Shown: piece after piece, positions 29,836 to 46,685 of the stretch
Layout: each line of letters opens with the position of its first letter
How positions within the stretch are numbered: the first letter of the stretch is position 1
From: Flavobacteriales bacterium
GTDB taxonomy: Bacteria > Bacteroidota > Bacteroidia > Flavobacteriales_G > Salibacteraceae
DNA: 52,196 nt
NCBI GenBank assembly: GCA_013204105.1
Contig: JABMOM010000024.1
Coordinates: 1-52,196 of the forward strand
Direction: 5' to 3'
Notes under the pieces: generated by a model
The model's database searches: none
Told to the model about the DNA's origin: nothing
Seen by the model: the letters and a program-made list of their open reading frames with translations, nothing else
Program-made: the position numbers and the translations under genes

Positions 29836-30906
29836 TCAGACGCCACCCATACTTATGCGTCTCAATTTTTCATAATCTTCAATGACGATGATTTTTCCAT
29901 CATTGGAAATAAGTTCTTCTGCTTTGAAGTCTGACAATGTACGAATCAAGGACTCAGTTGCAATGCCAGCATAACCGGCCAATTCCTCTCTGGAGATGGC
30001 CAATTCAATCTTGTGGCTATTGTCGTTGCCGTACTTATCGTACAGTGATTTGATGACGGTAGCGACCCGCTCACGTACATTGCCATAGGCCAACTTGAGC
30101 AATCGTTCCTCTTGGTCGAGAACATTTTTGGACAGGATCTTAATGAAGTTGTTGGTCACTTCTCGATTCGAATACATCAACTTTCTAAATTCTTCGATCG
30201 GAATGAGTGCCACTTCTGAGTCCTCGATGGCCGTTGCCTCTTCCGTGAATGCCGAATTCTCCAGCAATGCCAGGTATCCTAAAAATTCACCTGGTCCACA
30301 CAGTTGGGTAATGAACTCTTTCCCGTAATCCGAGCTTTTCGAAAGCTTCACTTTGCCAGTTCTCAAATAATACAGGGCGTGGGGATATTCTCCTTCACGA
30401 TAAATAGTATCCTTCTTTTTAAATGCCTTGGTATTGCGTTCATTGATGAGGTCGTCAATGGAGAGTTCGCGTTCGACATCTCCCATAAACCGCATCACAT
30501 CGTCATGGTTATCAACCGATTGAGGTGCTCTGATGGCTTCCGACTTTTTAAGTCGCAATTCAATCGCGTCTAAAAGGTCGGTCTCATCAAACGGCTTGGT
30601 GAGGTAATCATCTGCCCCCATGTTCATTCCTTTCCGGAAGTCTCCTCTTTCAGCTTTAGCCGTTAAAAAGATGAATGGCACGGCTGAGGTTTTCGGATTC
30701 TTGTTCAGAATGTGCAACACGCCATAGCCATCAAGCTCTGGCATCATGATGTCACAAATGATCAGGTCATAGGTTTGTTCGTTGGCCAAACTGACTCCTA
30801 CTTTGCCGTTCTCAGCCGTATCAACTTCATAGCCCGCTAATTGCAGGATTTCGGCTGTATTTTCTCTGACGTCTGAATTGTCCTCTATGAGAAGGATACG
30901 CTTCAT
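29836..30906 (-). CDS. Response regulator: receiver domain fused to CRP/FNR-type regulator
   Basis: 356 residues. Receiver domain at 1-120 with phospho-acceptor D52 (CDIMMPELDG), T82 and K104 intact. Then a cyclic-nucleotide-binding-like effector domain at about 150-250 (IYREGEYPHALYYLRTGKVKLSK, GEFLGYLALLEN) and a CRP winged helix at about 275-350 (AISREELAGYAGIATESLIRTLSDFK, the recognition helix). No cysteine cluster as in FNR is seen, so input probably comes through phosphorylation. It overlaps the kinase gene by ATGA, making a cognate pair. The combination replaces separate FixJ and FixK proteins in one polypeptide. Confidence 0.92.
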   Translation of the reverse strand: MKRILLIEDNSDVRENTAEILQLAGYEVDTAENGKVGVSLANEQTYDLIICDIMMPELDGYGVLHILNKNPKTSAVPFIFLTAKAERGDFRKGMNMGADDYLTKPFDETDLLDAIELRLKKSEAIRAPQSVDNHDDVMRFMGDVERELSIDDLINERNTKAFKKKDTIYREGEYPHALYYLRTGKVKLSKSSDYGKEFITQLCGPGEFLGYLALLENSAFTEEATAIEDSEVALIPIEEFRKLMYSNREVTNNFIKILSKNVLDQEERLLKLAYGNVRERVATVIKSLYDKYGNDNSHKIELAISREELAGYAGIATESLIRTLSDFKAEELISNDGKIIVIEDYEKLRRISMGGV

Positions 30907-38161: not shown

Positions 38162-40309
38162 TTATTTAGTGGCTACGTCAGTAGATTCAATGTCGCGTCC
38201 CAATCGTTGCAAGTAGGCAATGAGGGCGATGATTTCGCGATCCGCTGGCACTTCGATTTGGTTGGAGGTCAAGAGGTCATCTACAATCTCTTGGGCTTGC
38301 GCGTTGAGATCTTGCACCGCCCGGTCTTCGTACCCCTGGGGATAAGGAACCCCGAGTGTGCGCATGGCGTTGATTTTGTCGGCGGTAGAGCTCATATCCA
38401 GTTGATCTTCGATCAACCACGGATAAGGGGGCATGATGGAACCTGGAGACATCGTCCTTGGGTCGAGCATGTGGTTGTAATGCCAGCTGTTCGGTTTGCG
38501 AAGCTTGGAGCCTCCTTCCCGCGCGAGGTCCGGGCCCGTGCGCTTGGAGCCCCACTGGAATGGGTGGTCGTACACAAACTCTCCCGCCTTGGAATACTCT
38601 CCATAGCGCTCCGTCTCACTTCTGAATGGACGGATCATCTGCGAGTGACAATTGTAGCATCCTTCACGGATGTATAGATCGCGCCCTTCTAATTCAAGCG
38701 GAGTATACGGCTTTACGCTACTGATGGTAGGAATGTTAGACTTGACCAACGCCGTTGGTATGATCTCAATCAATCCTCCAATGGAGACTGCGACAAGGGC
38801 TAGCACCATCAATACCATGGGCTTGCGCTCCAATGCTCGGTGCCAATACTCCCCTGCATGAGGTGTGTAATCCTTGGCGAGCGGAGCGGCTTGTGCTGGC
38901 TCATCCTTGATGAAGGAACCATTTTTAGCCGTAACCAGGAGGTTATAGACCATGACCAATACACCAACGATGTAGATGGCGCCTCCAAATGCGCGCATTA
39001 CATACATCGGCATCAACTGGGTGACCGTTTCAAGGAAGTTAGGGTAGGCAAGGAAGCCGTCAGGGGTGAACTCCTTCCACATCAAACTTTGCGTAAACCC
39101 GGCCCAGTACATTGGGATGGCGTAAAAAATGATTCCTAGTGTTCCAATCCAGAAATGGAAGTTGGCCAGTTTCATGGAGTGCAACTTGGTGTTCCACATC
39201 TTAGGAATAAGGAAATAGAGCATGCCGAAGGTCAAGAAACCATTCCAGCCCAGTCCTCCAATGTGCACGTGGGCGATTGTCCAGTCGGTAAAGTGGCTGA
39301 TGGCGTTGACGCTCTTAAGCGACATCATCGGCCCCTCGAACGTGGACATACCGTAGCACGTGATCGCAACGACCATGAATTTTAGAACGGCGCTGTCTCG
39401 CACCTTGTCCCACGCTCCTCTCAATGTGAGTAAGCCGTTGAGCATACCCCCCCATGAAGGAGCGATCAACATGATGGAGAAAACTACCCCTAGCGATTGG
39501 GCCCAATCTGGAAGAGCCGTATACAATAAGTGGTGAGGACCTGCCCAGATGTAGATGAAGATCAGTGCCCAAAAGTGGACGATGGAAAGCCGGTAGGAAT
39601 ACACTGGACGATTCGCAGCCTTCGGCACGAAGTAGTACATCAATCCGAGGTAAGGCGTGGTTAGAAAAAATGCAACTGCATTATGTCCATACCACCATTG
39701 TACCAAGGCGTCTTGCACACCTGCGTACCAGCTGTAACTCTTCAAGAAGGAAACGGGAAGTTCAAACGAATTAAAAATGTGAAGGATAGCTACGGTAACG
39801 AAGGTGGCTAGGTAGAACCAAATGGCTACATAGATGTGGCGCTCTCGTCGCTTGACAATGGTCATGATCATGTTAAGGCCAAAGACCACCCATAATAAGG
39901 TGATCGCAATGTCGATCGGCCATTCGAGTTCCGCATACTCCTTGCCCGTAGTATAACCCAGGGGAAGGGTTATGACTGCCGATAGAATGATCAACTGCCA
40001 ACCCCAAAAATTGACGTTAGAGAGCATGTCGCTCCACATCCTTGTTTTGAGTAGTCGTTGGAGGGAATAATAGACTCCCGCGAAAATGCCGTTACCGACG
40101 AATGCAAAAATCACCGCATTGGTGTGCAATGGTCGAATGCGTCCAAACGTCAGCCAGGAGATGGCCAAGTTGTCAGAAAAGAACTCCGCAAAAGCAAGCT
40201 GAAGCGCGGCGAGGAGTCCTACCAGCATACCAACAACTCCAAACGCCACCGTTGCGATGAGGAATTTGCGTACGATGCCGTTGTCATAGTTAAACTTCTC
40301 CATTTCCAT
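38162..40309 (-). CDS. ccoN: cbb3-type cytochrome c oxidase, fused CcoN-CcoO
   Basis: 715 residues; terminal oxidase reducing oxygen to water with proton pumping at low oxygen. Residues 1-460 are CcoN (12 or more helices) with haem and copper ligands visible as H62 (RPLHTN), H209 (WYGHN), H259/H260 (GPHH) and H347/H349 (AHVHIGG). Residues 490-715 are CcoO, with one helix near 498-518 and the haem c site C551-x-x-C554-H555 (CYNCHSQM). The fusion is typical for Bacteroidota. Start ATG at 40309 or two codons later. It follows ccoS by 3 bp. Confidence 0.96.
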   Translation of the reverse strand: MEMEKFNYDNGIVRKFLIATVAFGVVGMLVGLLAALQLAFAEFFSDNLAISWLTFGRIRPLHTNAVIFAFVGNGIFAGVYYSLQRLLKTRMWSDMLSNVNFWGWQLIILSAVITLPLGYTTGKEYAELEWPIDIAITLLWVVFGLNMIMTIVKRRERHIYVAIWFYLATFVTVAILHIFNSFELPVSFLKSYSWYAGVQDALVQWWYGHNAVAFFLTTPYLGLMYYFVPKAANRPVYSYRLSIVHFWALIFIYIWAGPHHLLYTALPDWAQSLGVVFSIMLIAPSWGGMLNGLLTLRGAWDKVRDSAVLKFMVVAITCYGMSTFEGPMMSLKSVNAISHFTDWTIAHVHIGGLGWNGFLTFGMLYFLIPKMWNTKLHSMKLANFHFWIGTLGIIFYAIPMYWAGFTQSLMWKEFTPDGFLAYPNFLETVTQLMPMYVMRAFGGAIYIVGVLVMVYNLLVTAKNGSFIKDEPAQAAPLAKDYTPHAGEYWHRALERKPMVLMVLALVAVSIGGLIEIIPTALVKSNIPTISSVKPYTPLELEGRDLYIREGCYNCHSQMIRPFRSETERYGEYSKAGEFVYDHPFQWGSKRTGPDLAREGGSKLRKPNSWHYNHMLDPRTMSPGSIMPPYPWLIEDQLDMSSTADKINAMRTLGVPYPQGYEDRAVQDLNAQAQEIVDDLLTSNQIEVPADREIIALIAYLQRLGRDIESTDVATK

Positions 40310-40312
40310 AGG

Positions 40313-40474
40313 TTATGAGTTTTGGTTGTTAGGTTCTTGATCGTCAAACAGGATGCGCACAGAGGGTGAATAGTCGTCATCGTATTGATTGTTTCGGATC
40401 GCCCAGATAAAGGCTCCTAAAAACCCAAGGGCAATGAGAAGGCTCACCACAATGTGTATGATCATAACGCTCAT
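40313..40474 (-). CDS. ccoS: cbb3 oxidase maturation protein CcoS
   Basis: A 53-residue protein read directly from the sequence: MSVMIIHIVVSLLIALGFLGAFIWAIRNNQYDDD..., one membrane helix followed by the GQYDD-like motif of CcoS (here NNQYDDDYSP). CcoS is needed for inserting haem and copper into CcoN. It is the first gene of the long operon ccoS-NO-Q-P-G-H-safE-hemN running down to 32870. In related genomes ccoI commonly precedes it; here ccoI lies 6.3 kb away. Confidence 0.9.
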   Translation of the reverse strand: MSVMIIHIVVSLLIALGFLGAFIWAIRNNQYDDDYSPSVRILFDDQEPNNQNS

Positions 40475-40602: not shown

Positions 40603-40624
40603 TATAACTGATTTTTCAGTTTAT
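40603..40624 (+). promoter_or_regulatory. Operator of the first blaI-M56 operon
   Basis: A 22-bp dyad TATAACT-N8-AGTTTAT with perfect inner core AACTGA-TTTT-TCAGTT, 7 bp before the blaI ATG and overlapping the -7-like box TTTATTTG (40620-40627). The same arrangement of half-sites, at the same spacing, precedes the second blaI gene at 46661-46682. Confidence 0.65.
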
Positions 40625-40631
40625 TTGCCTC

Positions 40632-41018
40632 ATGGAAGAATTATTAACGTCGACGGAAGAGCGGATCATGCAGATCATTTGGCGACTGGAAAAGGCATTT
40701 GTCAAAGACATCATTGACGAACTCCCGGCGCCAAAACCCCCGTACAACACGGTTTCTTCTGTGGTTCGCCTGCTCGAACAAAAGGGTTACCTCGGACATA
40801 AAGCTTACGGTCGTGCACATGAGTACCACCCCCTGATTCCGAAAAAAGACTACTCCAAGTTGACCTTCCGAAAATTGCTCAGCAGCTATTTTGAAGGCTC
40901 TTATCAATCTCTCGTCTCCTACATCGTGAATGAAGAAAAGCTCAGCGTAAAAGAGATCAAAGAACTCGAAAGCCTGATTTCACTTCAACGAAAGGAAAAC
41001 CAAAGCAAGAACCCATGA
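40632..41018 (+). CDS. BlaI/MecI/CopY-family repressor
   Basis: 128 residues. Winged-helix domain at 1-75 with recognition region PKPPYNTVSSVVRLLEQKGYL and wing HKAYGRAHEYHPL, then a helical dimerisation domain with LLSSYFEGSYQSL, the place where BlaI is cleaved by its M56 partner. It resembles the repressor at 46273-46650 closely through the DNA-binding helices. Its stop overlaps the start of the M56 gene by ATGA, so the repressor and its inactivating protease are made together. Near-leaderless promoter and operator directly upstream. Confidence 0.92.
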   Translation: MEELLTSTEERIMQIIWRLEKAFVKDIIDELPAPKPPYNTVSSVVRLLEQKGYLGHKAYGRAHEYHPLIPKKDYSKLTFRKLLSSYFEGSYQSLVSYIVNEEKLSVKEIKELESLISLQRKENQSKNP

Positions 41019-42955
41019 CAACACAAGCCATTTTCGTCGGAATCTTGGAGGCAAATGCCGTTATCATTGCGTTGTGGGCCTTCTATGCGGTCGTTCTCCG
41101 AACCGGCACGCACTATCACTATTCCCGCATCTTTTTACTCTCCATAGCCCTCGTTGGGGTTGGCATTGCCGCTATCAACATCGAGGTGGAGCGCGCTGAG
41201 GTCGTGGCATCGACCCCTACTTTTCTTTCATTATCCGATGCTTTTCCAGCCGCCTACGTGGGTGAGGACTTGAGCTTAGGAAGGGAAGAAGGCATGTCCA
41301 GTTTTGTCGGGGGGGGCAGTGCGTTCCAGTGGATTACATGGATCCTTCTGATCGGTGCATTTCTCAGCCTACTTTTTGCCATTTTCAGATGGGTTGCTTT
41401 CTACTCCTTGCTCAGAAAACAGCGAACATGGAATGAAGATCATCAGGTCTATTTGATCCAAACGTTTGATGTCGCTTTTGCCTTCTTAGGCACCATATAT
41501 CTTCCTAGGCATTATATGGCCTTTCCGGCGGATGACCTCAATCGAATCCTTGCCCATGAACGCGGACATGCTGCATTGCGGCATCATTGGGATCGGATAA
41601 CGCTTTCCTTTTTCAAGGCAATGTTTTGGTACAACCCCGCCTTCATTCTCATCGATCGATCGCTCACAGCGGTACATGAGTTTCAAGTCGATAGACTGGT
41701 AGTAACCCCTGAAGAAGATCCTTTTGCGTACAGCAATTTACTCCTGCGGCTCCAGTCCGGAGTGCATCCTCCCACCATGGCCGCCCTTTTTTCCAAGCAA
41801 TTGATCAAGTCGCGCGTAAATAGACTTCATCAACCCAATTCAACTATCATGAAAAAAGTGACCTTCATGCTGGCCCTACCTTTAGTGGCCACGCTGTTCT
41901 ATGCCTTCTCTATTCAAACAGTTGCCGTTCCCCTTGCGCTGCCTACAGGGCAAATCGAGCCCATGCGTCCCGACCCACATCAGTTGCCCATCGCTGCCTC
42001 AACTGTCACCGGATTTTCTGCTTTTGGCGCACGAATTGACCCCTTCTCTAGTGAAACAACAAAGCACCGAGGAATCGATCTAGTAGCCCCTTCTGGCACT
42101 CCGATACTCGCGTCTATGGCCGGTACAGTACTCAGCGTCCAGTACTTAGAAAACGGCTACGGTAATCTGGTCGAAATTCTTCACGCCAATGGTAGCCTTT
42201 CGCGCTATGCGCACTTACTAGAAAGTCTTGTTGTTTCCGGTCAGGCGGTAAATCAAGGCGAGGTGATCGGAAGTTGCGGGTCAACTGGGAAAAGCACGGG
42301 GCCTCATCTCCATTTCGAATTGCTGCATGGTGACTCCTTGCTAGATCCAGAGGAATTCATCGACCTGGGAAACATCTCCTTTGCAAAGGAAGAAGTTCTT
42401 CCCCCGATGAAAAAGGACCTCAAGGTCATCATCGATGCAGGACATGGCGGAAAGGACCCTGGAAATCAAGCAGAAAATGCGACAGAAAAAGACATTACCA
42501 TGGCCATTTCCAAGGTGCTTGCATTGCTTTTGAGATCGCAGGGATACGAGGTAGTTGAAACACGCAATGGCGATGACTTTGTGCCTTTGACAGATCGGGT
42601 AGGTATGTCACATTCCAACAGTGATGAACTCCTCATCAGCCTTCACCTGAATGCATCGGAAAATGACAATGCGAGGGGCGTCGAGATGTTCATCCCCACA
42701 GAAGCGCATCCCTACCATGACCTCAGCAAACATTTTGGAAACGAAGTTGGACGGGTGCTCAATGAAGAGGCGGTGCTAAACCGAGGCATGAAAACTGCTG
42801 AATTCTATGTGCTAAAGCAGAGTACATGTCCTTCTATTCTGGTCGAATTAGGATTTATGTCGTCTCCTCTTGAGCTGAAACGCCTCACGTCCGAAGCCTA
42901 CCAGCTGGCACTTGCCGAATACCTGTCACAAGGCATATCGTATTACGCGCGATGA
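41015..42955 (+). CDS. Fusion of M56 (BlaR1-like) membrane protease, M23 endopeptidase and cell-wall amidase
   Basis: 646 residues without break. Part 1 (1-302): M56 protease with membrane helices near 6-28, 39-56, 104-128 and 281-302; zinc motif H181-ERG-H185 and a downstream HEFQVDR. Part 2 (about 330-450): M23/LytM endopeptidase with H351-x3-D355, H400 and H431-L-H433. Part 3 (about 468-646): N-acetylmuramoyl-L-alanine amidase (Amidase_3) with H477, E491, H544 and catalytic E611 (LVELGFMS). All expected ligands are present, so both wall-lytic domains should be active. After the last helix they lie in the periplasm. In BlaR1 this place holds a beta-lactam sensor domain. Likely role: cleave the BlaI partner on a wall signal and cut peptidoglycan crosslinks and stems. 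Function inferred. Confidence 0.9.
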   Translation: MTTQAIFVGILEANAVIIALWAFYAVVLRTGTHYHYSRIFLLSIALVGVGIAAINIEVERAEVVASTPTFLSLSDAFPAAYVGEDLSLGREEGMSSFVGGGSAFQWITWILLIGAFLSLLFAIFRWVAFYSLLRKQRTWNEDHQVYLIQTFDVAFAFLGTIYLPRHYMAFPADDLNRILAHERGHAALRHHWDRITLSFFKAMFWYNPAFILIDRSLTAVHEFQVDRLVVTPEEDPFAYSNLLLRLQSGVHPPTMAALFSKQLIKSRVNRLHQPNSTIMKKVTFMLALPLVATLFYAFSIQTVAVPLALPTGQIEPMRPDPHQLPIAASTVTGFSAFGARIDPFSSETTKHRGIDLVAPSGTPILASMAGTVLSVQYLENGYGNLVEILHANGSLSRYAHLLESLVVSGQAVNQGEVIGSCGSTGKSTGPHLHFELLHGDSLLDPEEFIDLGNISFAKEEVLPPMKKDLKVIIDAGHGGKDPGNQAENATEKDITMAISKVLALLLRSQGYEVVETRNGDDFVPLTDRVGMSHSNSDELLISLHLNASENDNARGVEMFIPTEAHPYHDLSKHFGNEVGRVLNEEAVLNRGMKTAEFYVLKQSTCPSILVELGFMSSPLELKRLTSEAYQLALAEYLSQGISYYAR

Positions 42956-45055: not shown

Positions 45056-46276
45056 TCATTTCATCGAATATTGGATCGGCAAGATCATTTTCACCTTGAC
45101 CTTTACGTCGTCTTTGGTGCCGGGCTCCCAATTGGGCATCCCTTTTACGAATTCAATACCCGGCGCTTCAAGCAGTGGGTCGTCGGATTTTACCGCTTCA
45201 ATATCGCTTAGGCTTCCATCTTCGTTTACGACAAAGCTCAGCATGACCTTTCCTTCAACGCCCGCCTCGCTCAGTTCTTTGGGGTAAACAAACCCCTCTT
45301 TGAAGTAAGTGAGTAATCCCTCCTGACCTCCGGGGAAAGAAGGCTCCACATCCACTTCATCCTTGTTCATCACTTGGTCTGAAGCTTTTGGAGTTATCGC
45401 GTCGCTGATTGCCACTTTCTGTTCGCTATCCGGTATGCCTGGTTGTTGCGTACATGAGCTCAACCAAACGGTTCCGGCAATTACGGGAATGATCAGCGCA
45501 TATACCGCCAATGACCACTTCCTAGATCTATTTTTATTCATCATGAGTATTCTGTTTTTAATGATTGACGTTGAGTAAAATGCATTCGTCAACCGAAAGA
45601 CTTGGGTGTCCAAAGCCTGATCCAGCAGGCTGTATTGATAGTCCTGTCCGTAGGTCCGCATCGTACGCTCATCGGCTAGGAACTCGTGATTGAGTTGCAC
45701 TTCCTTGGCTGCTAAGTGAACAAACGGATTGAACCAAGCCACTACGCGTGTTACGGCGTAAAGCATGACATCTATAGAATGCCATTCTTCCTTGTGTACT
45801 TGTTCGTGGGTCAGGATCATCTCCTTCGTTTCGCCATCGATCGTCGCACCGATCTGAATGCGCGAGAAAAAGGAAAAAGCATGGCTTCCCTCGCTTACCA
45901 AGTACTTCCCAGCCTCAGCTTGCTCTTCACGAGCATCTTTAGCCGATTGCATGATCAAATAAATCGCCCGGAAGAGAACCGAAAGGCCCACCAGTACTCC
46001 AACCAAGTAAATCCAAAAAGCAGTCTCGATCACGGGTTGAAACATGGGTTGCTGTGACGCGCTAAGCACCAACAATGGCAACTCCACTACCGGCAAAGCA
46101 TCCGTGCCAGCACCCCAGCTGGGTATCCTAATCAAGGGCACCACCGTTGAAAAAAGCAAGGCCGCCATGAGGTAGAACCTGTTCCAATGAAAGAAGGTCA
46201 ATCGCTTGAACACTCCCACGTAAAACAGGTAGAGCAGGGCGAACGAAAGGTTCGCTATGATCATGTATTCCATCAT
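45056..46276 (-). CDS. M56-family membrane protease fused to a TonB C-terminal domain
   Basis: 406 residues. Four membrane helices (about 6-22, 35-50, 82-105, 255-274), zinc site H157-EQV-H161 with HEFLADERTM at 197-206 in the cytosolic loop, then a periplasmic TonB C-terminal domain at about 312-403 (FPGGQEGLLTYFKEGFVYPKE, EGKVMLSFVVNEDGSLSDI, VPIQYSMK-like end). In BlaR1 the sensor is a penicillin-binding domain; here the TonB-like domain probably contacts an outer-membrane protein. The gene overlaps blaI by 4 bp and its product should cleave that repressor. M56-TonB fusions recur in Bacteroidota. Confidence 0.92.
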   Translation of the reverse strand: MMEYMIIANLSFALLYLFYVGVFKRLTFFHWNRFYLMAALLFSTVVPLIRIPSWGAGTDALPVVELPLLVLSASQQPMFQPVIETAFWIYLVGVLVGLSVLFRAIYLIMQSAKDAREEQAEAGKYLVSEGSHAFSFFSRIQIGATIDGETKEMILTHEQVHKEEWHSIDVMLYAVTRVVAWFNPFVHLAAKEVQLNHEFLADERTMRTYGQDYQYSLLDQALDTQVFRLTNAFYSTSIIKNRILMMNKNRSRKWSLAVYALIIPVIAGTVWLSSCTQQPGIPDSEQKVAISDAITPKASDQVMNKDEVDVEPSFPGGQEGLLTYFKEGFVYPKELSEAGVEGKVMLSFVVNEDGSLSDIEAVKSDDPLLEAPGIEFVKGMPNWEPGTKDDVKVKVKMILPIQYSMK

Positions 46277-46650
46277 TGCTTGTCGTTTTTATCGATGCTT
46301 TTAAGGATCTCGTCCAATTCATCCATGTTGAGCTCTCGCTCCTTTACGAAAAAGGAGACCAGTTCCTTTACGGACCCATTGAAGTAATTCGACAACAAAT
46401 TCCCTGCAGAGAATCGGCTGTAGTCTTCTTTGCTGACCTTTGGAAAGTACTCGTACGTTTTTCCGTAGGCTTTGTGATCTACAAAGCCCTTTTCTTCCAA
46501 AATTCGTACGATAGTGCTGACCGTGTTGTAGGCCGGCTTTGGTTCGGGCATCTGTGCGAGGATGTCCTTGACAAAACACTTTTCGAGGTCCCACAAGTAC
46601 TGCATTACTTGCTCCTCGGCCTTGGTCAACTCTTTCAATTTCGAATGCAT
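46273..46650 (-). CDS. BlaI/MecI/CopY-family repressor, second copy
   Basis: 125 residues, a clear paralogue of the repressor at 40632: LEKCFVKDI, PEPKPAYNTVSTIVRILEEKGFV and HKAYGKTYEYFP align directly, and LLSNYFNGSVKELVS matches the cleavage region. The recognition helix is nearly identical between the two proteins, which fits their sharing an operator. It heads the operon with the M56-TonB gene. Promoter TTG-N20-TACATTTG and operator lie directly upstream, with only four bases between the -7 box and the ATG. Confidence 0.93.
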   Translation of the reverse strand: MHSKLKELTKAEEQVMQYLWDLEKCFVKDILAQMPEPKPAYNTVSTIVRILEEKGFVDHKAYGKTYEYFPKVSKEDYSRFSAGNLLSNYFNGSVKELVSFFVKERELNMDELDEILKSIDKNDKQ

Positions 46651-46654
46651 AGAA

Positions 46655-46685
46655 CAAATGTATAACTAAAAACATAGTTATACAA
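46655..46685 (-). promoter_or_regulatory. Promoter and operator of the second blaI-M56 operon
   Basis: Reverse strand: TTG (46683-46685), 20-bp spacer, TACATTTG (46655-46662). The spacer is filled by a perfect 10-6-10 dyad (46659-46684) containing TATAACT-N8-AGTTATA (46661-46682). A repressor bound here would cover both promoter elements. ATG is 4 bp past the -7 box. Confidence 0.8.

Follow-up and report, generated by a model that had tools for sequence, protein, structure and literature searches.

It is only partly understood how Gram-negative bacteria monitor their cell wall and restrain the enzymes that could lyse them. What does a receptor-protease do when cutting enzymes occupy the position of its sensor? 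The question is raised by a 52,196-nucleotide stretch of DNA, referred to as a whole as the window, from a Flavobacteriales bacterium of the family Salibacteraceae (assembly GCA_013204105.1, contig JABMOM010000024.1). One of its genes encodes a protein in which a membrane protease of the M56 type, as in the receptor BlaR1, is followed by an M23 endopeptidase and an Amidase_3 amidase, and a gene for a BlaI-type repressor lies directly in front of it. The answer that we favour, with a probability of roughly 0.47, is a loop of BlaI and M56 that produces its own tethered receptor-hydrolase. The gene and its domains are as follows.

41015..42955, + strand: three-domain gene (M56 membrane protease, M23, Amidase_3), ATG start, 646 amino acids
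41489..41821, + strand: Peptidase_M56 domain, residues 159-269, with HERGH at 181-185, E222xxxD226, F259 and R267
41858..41914, + strand: fourth hydrophobic membrane segment, residues 282-300, from hydropathy and model helices, separating the protease from the hydrolases
42062..42349, + strand: Peptidase_M23 domain, residues 350-445, with H351, D355, H400, H431 and H433
42425..42940, + strand: Amidase_3 domain, residues 471-642, with H477, E491, H544 and E611, without an AmiA-type regulatory segment

A sequence-only reading of this DNA had placed M56, M23 and Amidase_3 in one 646-residue frame with all catalytic ligands present. A Pfam search of the protein confirmed this composition, with 103.7 bits for Peptidase_M23, 150.3 bits for Amidase_3 and a borderline 31.5 bits for Peptidase_M56 (cut-off 31), and every residue named was located in the sequence. 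The weak M56 call was accepted because a profile search aligned the membrane and protease half with Staphylococcus aureus BlaR1 (8exp, E 1.7e-8), and because residues 6-262 of the model superpose on BlaR1 8exs (Z 17.2, root-mean-square deviation 4.4, 226 residues aligned). The NCBIfam model blaR1_generic scored 15.6 against a cut-off of 400 bits, and no transpeptidase-type Pfam domain was found in the C-terminal half at E 0.01. For BlaR1, passages of PMC9834060 name the HEXXH and EXXXD motifs, R294 and F284, the bulky autocleavage-loop residue. In the window protein the zinc motif is H181ERGH185, the third ligand is E222 within E222FQVD226 (ExxxD), and the profile alignment places F284 at F259 and R294 at R267. 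The HEXXH, EXXXD, F259 and R267 columns are invariant in an alignment of 13 rows, so that the protease half looks competent. The description of a BlaR1-like protease with two competent-looking hydrolases at the sensor position is thus borne out by the domains, the ligands and the BlaR1 profile and fold matches.

The AlphaFold2 model of the whole protein has a mean predicted local distance difference test (pLDDT) score of 77.7 and a predicted template modelling (pTM) score of 0.44. Its M23 fold matches ShyA (Z 20.4), and its amidase fold matches 4rn7 best among the amidases (Z 28.6). The linkers at residues 300-317 and 458-461 score below 50 in pLDDT and look flexible in the models, and a pTM of 0.58 was obtained for the mutual orientation of M23 and amidase. 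The strongest separate hydropathy peaks lie at residues 5-23, 39-57, 106-124 and 282-300, with a weaker one at 195-213; values above 1.2 were also seen at 46-64, 145-163 and 357-375, and were taken as overlap with helix 2 and strands of folded domains. The loops at 128-145 and 262-281 carry a net basic charge, whereas loop 57-104 is acidic. With basic loops inside and the acidic loop outside, the HERGH site would lie on the inner side of the membrane, and the hydrolases and the N-terminus on the outer side. By prediction, the protein should have four membrane helices, both termini outside and a cytosolic active site as in BlaR1, to which passages of PMC9834060 ascribe a re-entrant loop in addition to four full membrane helices.

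Are the hydrolases likely to work? Catalytic ligands were tallied in 28 fused open reading frames (ORFs), a set that excludes L002, L006, L007 and the loci from L127 on, and in which one gene is counted twice, as L034 and as L107. The M56 ligands (two His, Glu and the third ligand) are intact in 28 of 28 ORFs, those of M23 in 26 of 27 domains, and those of the amidase in 8 of 8. Their retention in nearly all copies checked speaks for working enzymes, as both the M23 and the amidase domain are predicted to be. The one M23 exception is found in L040 (1048-3084, minus strand), which encodes an M56-M23-M23 protein behind a BlaI gene in a distant member of the phylum; the first M23 of this protein has Asn at the H400 position. 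In phmmer searches with the amidase domain, the best stretch to AmiA, AmiB and AmiC stops at query residue 95-110, and 4rn7, 5emi and CwlV align up to query residue 179 of 181. When the amidase model (468-646) was compared with AmiA, 178 residues aligned within the AmiA range 56-277 (222 residues), leaving 44 AmiA residues unaligned; the regulatory domain of AmiA comprises residues 151-194, according to a passage of PMC10268282. The short alignment and the unaligned range point to an amidase without the AmiA-type off-switch, for which control at the level of synthesis would make sense.

Such control could be exerted by the repressor, which belongs to the following elements.

40632..41018, + strand: blaI-type repressor gene (Penicillinase_R), 128 amino acids, 4-base overlap with the three-domain gene
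40603..40624, no strand: proposed BlaI operator TATAACT-N8-AGTTTAT, inside the 157-bp region between the divergent ccoS and blaI
46273..46650, - strand: second blaI-type repressor gene
45056..46276, - strand: second M56 protein, whose periplasmic slot holds a TonB_C domain
46661..46682, no strand: dyad TATAACT-N8-AGTTATA before the second blaI, a perfect version

The BlaI partner expected from the sequence is present, its Penicillinase_R match reaching 104.8 bits (cut-off 22.6), and in each of the 6 distinct loci a blaI-type gene precedes the three-domain gene. In all five loci of the window's family, AACT-N8-AGTT starts at most 70 nucleotides before blaI. One copy is present in the window and in G006, two in G015 and G001 and three in G008, the multiple copies being spaced 20 bp apart. 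By chance, 9-29 of 5000 sequences per locus hold the dyad when resampled with the same neighbour frequencies. The dyad before blaI is a new element found here, and we infer that it serves as the operator of BlaI.

Longer versions of the dyad were then scanned in whole genomes. WAACTG-N6-CAGTTW has a single match in the window's genome (G000), at 40605 in the window promoter. G001, G008 and G015 each have one extra match besides their own promoter, and G006 has one match elsewhere, its own promoter being missed owing to a flanking G; the reversed controls gave 0 matches in G000, 4 in G001, 2 in G006, 0 in G008 and 6 in G015. TATAACTR-N6-YAGTTATA, with up to 3 mismatches, gave 13 sites in G000 (control 62), among which both half-sites are preserved only at the two blaI genes. 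The extended dyad thus marks the two blaI promoters of this genome. The second pair, blaI and M56-TonB_C, follows the three-domain gene after about 2 kb and has a similar proposed operator, and the two repressors of the window may cross-talk via the similar dyads. Weaker BlaI targets beyond the blaI promoters are possible.

The long gene was found in 5 of 35 genomes of the family. It is full length in the window's genome, G006 and G015, and damaged or partial in G001 (a frameshift in the N-terminal part) and G008 (an N-run, the copy reaching the contig end). The four genomes other than that of the window share the gene order behind blaI at 35-39% identity. G009 retains a 109-residue scrap, 80% identical to residues 540-646. 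No full-length match outside the family was seen in 395 phylum, 395 class and 42 order genomes drawn, and no further fused copy in 397 genomes around G369 (in the phylum, class and G369-neighbourhood draws, 3 candidates were scored per genome). Among 3960 plasmid records with a match none covers 80% of the query, and plasmid carriage was rejected. A survey of genome contigs with one peptide pattern, covering at least 80 loci and not a census, was classified with three home-made hidden Markov models over all loci collected at that point. It gave at least 63 proteins with M56 alone, 19 M56-M23 ORFs (18 different genes), 9 M56-M23-amidase ORFs (6 distinct), 2 M56-amidase proteins and 1 M56-M23-M23 protein. 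The sixth distinct three-domain protein, confirmed by Pfam, is L089 from a Tenacibaculum metagenome-assembled genome. Further M56-M23 ORFs of 688-987 residues with additional C-terminal parts occur at L208:1402-4362, L211:1399-3588 and L210:742-2805, that of L211 with a weak TonB receptor Plug match.

How often did the fusion arise? In the M56 tree, L089 falls inside a mostly Flavobacteriaceae M56-M23 group (Shimodaira-Hasegawa-like approximate likelihood ratio test, SH-aLRT, 99), and the five family members group apart from it (SH-aLRT 100). In the amidase tree, L089 pairs with the separate amidase of Bizionia L073 (SH-aLRT 96). This Bizionia gene (= G796 gene) lies directly behind an M56-M23 gene, with a single in-frame TAG between the two, and its product has a signal-like N-terminus by eye. 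A 648-residue open frame listed for G796 as a fused copy was ruled out by this TAG. A single origin of all three-domain proteins was rejected by the approximately unbiased (AU) test (p 0.030 for M56 and 0.007 for the amidase), and one clade for all M23-bearing rows was not rejected (p 0.225); the constraints were set after quick trees had been viewed, several rows are long-branched, L040 was left out and 7 M56-only rows were kept. The M56 tree was built without L001, L002, L006, L007 and L034 (duplicates or the second window protein, added back from the window). The amidase and M23 trees dropped the same rows plus L008 (the G009 scrap), and the M23 tree has few columns and little resolution. 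The three-domain protein was probably built twice.

The loop that we propose would work as follows. A BlaR1-type receptor-protease would carry in its periplasmic slot an M23 endopeptidase, acting on peptide crosslinks, and an N-acetylmuramoyl-L-alanine amidase, and its four membrane helices would hold both hydrolases at the outer face of the inner membrane. BlaI would occupy the AACT-N8-AGTT dyads and repress its own operon, no other clear target having been found. A signal from the wall or from the membrane half would cause the cytosolic M56 site to cut BlaI, upon which the operon would be released and more tethered hydrolase made. As the product is that of the operon itself, receptor, effector and main regulated product would lie on one chain, and the loop would determine how much is made of a wall cutter that is otherwise unrestrained. 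The earlier idea that wall cleavage is coupled to gene control in one molecule gains partial support from the repressor-protease pair and the proposed operator.

Several observations weigh against such a loop. The bare dyad AACT-N8-AGTT has 30 sites in G000 against 213 in the reversed control, 27 of them outside the window, and on its own it is non-specific; one site falls inside the M56-TonB gene, and another, AACTGTGTGGTCAGTT at C31:21416, likewise has the inner G...C. In a scan of 92 blaI rows in 91 loci, duplicates included, the dyad was found before blaI outside the window's family only in L055, L065, L066, L075 and L080, and it is missing from the 150 nucleotides before blaI in L089, the Tenacibaculum copy. 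The divergent ccoS promoter region, shared with blaI, is a possible BlaI target. The small number of family genomes with the gene, together with the G009 scrap, indicates that the system is dispensable. Finally, S. aureus BlaI is cut at Asn101-Phe102, as stated in a passage of PMC9834060. At this position the BlaI proteins of five family loci have Ile or Met, with Phe or Tyr one residue earlier. Phe occupies it in 19 of 19 partners of M56-M23 proteins, in 2 of 2 partners of M56-amidase proteins and in L089, Ala in the L040 partner, and 39 Phe and 22 Leu were counted among the partners of other M56 proteins. The register of this alignment was set from what we take to be the S. aureus sequence.

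It is possible that the hydrolases are regulated cargo, that is, effectors only. The M56 helices, the extracellular loop or another protein would then sense, and the fusion would tie the amount and place of the hydrolases to the BlaI switch. This would agree with the periplasmic slot of 62 other M56 proteins, which holds unrelated domains (TonB_C in 30, Plug in 18 and CarbopepD_reg_2 in 13), is thus swappable and need not be a ligand sensor in each case. It would also agree with the hydrolase ligands, kept in all domains but one, and with the separate, signal-like Bizionia amidase right behind M56-M23. However, the slot domain is the sensor in S. aureus BlaR1 (passages of PMC9834060), and hydrolases were repeatedly recruited to the sensor slot. 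It is plausible that the hydrolases are the sensor; in the sequence-only reading, binding or exhaustion of substrate would switch the protease. A bolder version of the tethered receptor-hydrolase loop goes further, and we consider it doubtful: occupancy of the M23 and amidase sites, or the state of their product, would gate M56, leading to BlaI cleavage and synthesis of the same protein. This would be a one-chain homeostat of wall cleavage that arose on at least two occasions through the fusion of an amidase to an M56-M23 receptor, and the window BlaI may also touch the cbb3 promoter, tying wall turnover to respiration.

Release of the hydrolases is an unlikely alternative to tethering. In this case the fourth helix would act as a signal peptide, signal peptidase would free a soluble M23-amidase into the periplasm, and the fusion would couple translation and processing. 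Segment 279-300 begins with MKK and its hydrophobic core is short, the N-termini of the split and single forms look signal-like by eye, and signal peptidase cuts BlaR1 in the linker behind the last helix (a passage of PMC9834060); MKK is not universal in the homologues, however, G006 having AKK. Very unlikely, in our view, is a pure sensor, whose hydrolase domains would bind wall fragments as ligand, with incidental catalysis and other genes as output. Their position equals that of the BlaR1 sensor and G000 has further bare dyads, but the catalytic ligands are near-completely retained in the relatives checked and G000 has no further site with the extended dyad. An assembly or base-call error joining separate genes, which the sequence-only reading had named as a danger and which the single in-frame TAG of Bizionia L073/G796 recalls, since one codon there decides between split and fused, is hardly credible and is refuted for the window's clade by three unbroken full-length and two damaged or partial assemblies, which share the same order at 35-39% identity.

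The genes on the other side of the proposed operator belong to a cbb3 oxidase cluster.

40316..40474, - strand: ccoS/FixS-type gene, 53 amino acids, divergent neighbour and first gene of the cbb3 oxidase cluster
38162..40309, - strand: fused CcoN-CcoO (COX1 + FixO), 715 amino acids, adjoining the system in several relatives

The three-domain operon is divergent from ccoS-ccoNO-ccoP-ccoG and lies 157 bp from ccoS. ccoNO adjoins the system in the window, G006 and G001 and lies about 3.7 kb off in G015; in G003 and G005 it is present and the system is not beside it. Of the family genomes, 5 of the 22 that have ccoNO and none of the 13 that lack it carry the system, too few for a claim of a functional link to the oxidase, and the association was taken as one of position, not proof of function. 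In G009, a close relative in which ccoNO was not found, the blaI genes and the larger part of both M56 genes are gone from the region L142:13240-18100 (G009:C5). There the three-domain scrap abuts usp, a FixI-type ATPase match ends at residue 511, and the gap holds, by eye, the apparent end of a tyrosine recombinase. A secreted cyclophilin-like protein, recognized by eye, stands beside the operon in two relatives, upstream in G015 (L005:50-982) and downstream in G001 (L006:3196-4083). Elsewhere in the window, 29836-30906 encodes a response regulator receiver fused to CRP-type cyclic-nucleotide (cNMP)-binding and HTH_Crp_2 domains, next to an apparent histidine kinase gene (by eye).

How does the protein compare with known systems? 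Like BlaR1/MecR1 with BlaI/MecI, it combines an M56 gluzincin site predicted to be cytosolic, four helices and a C-terminal periplasmic domain with a blaI-type gene in front, HEXXH and EXXXD, the Phe of the autocleavage loop and the Arg behind it. Unlike them, it has two hydrolases and no penicillin-binding SXXK sensor domain, no separate target gene was found in our scans, and its proposed operator is AACT-N8-AGTT. A database label 'M23/M56 family metallopeptidase' presumably exists. That M23/M56 fusions were already known, as the first reading noted, is supported by a mention in the review PMC9662197, passages of which count M56 and amidase among the second catalytic domains found in less than 1% of M23 hits and state that no part of M56 in wall cleavage had been demonstrated. 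The Bacteroidota M56-M23 proteins share the domain order behind blaI, whereas they have no amidase in the chain, and the passages of PMC9662197 give the pair no function. For the three-domain version, which the first reading had set apart from the known fusions, we found no description or function in open-licence PubMed Central papers.

Escherichia coli EnvC/LytM-AmiA/B likewise pairs an M23-fold domain with Amidase_3. There, passages of PMC10268282 describe a LytM domain that activates a separate amidase, which a blocking helix keeps in check, whereas the window M23 keeps its ligands, the amidase is without a blocking segment and both are on one chain. Regulatory modules fused to a periplasmic amidase are also found in the M56-amidase proteins and in proteins of HTH_3, membrane helix and Amidase_3, which differ in having no M23 and, in the HTH_3 form, in carrying their own DNA-binding domain. 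The latter, another regulator joined to a wall amidase, are 416-421 residues long, with the membrane helix apparent by eye, and occur at L214:1501-2748, L216:1492-2748 and L217:1495-2757 (all minus strand) in genomes G663, G369 and G145.

Judged from its sequence, the three-domain protein is a real, conserved, recurrent and enzymatically plausible member of the BlaR1/BlaI kind. Its repeated assembly from an M56-M23 protein and an amidase, the latter a neighbouring gene in one relative, is an argument for the usefulness of the coupling. At its periplasmic end an M56 protein has what looks like an exchangeable slot, a finding relevant to the many BlaI/M56 pairs of Bacteroidota that are still uncharacterised. 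With cutting enzymes at the sensor position and a repressor in its own operon, this receptor offers a compact case that can be tested directly, and suggests a self-regulating circuit for wall remodelling.

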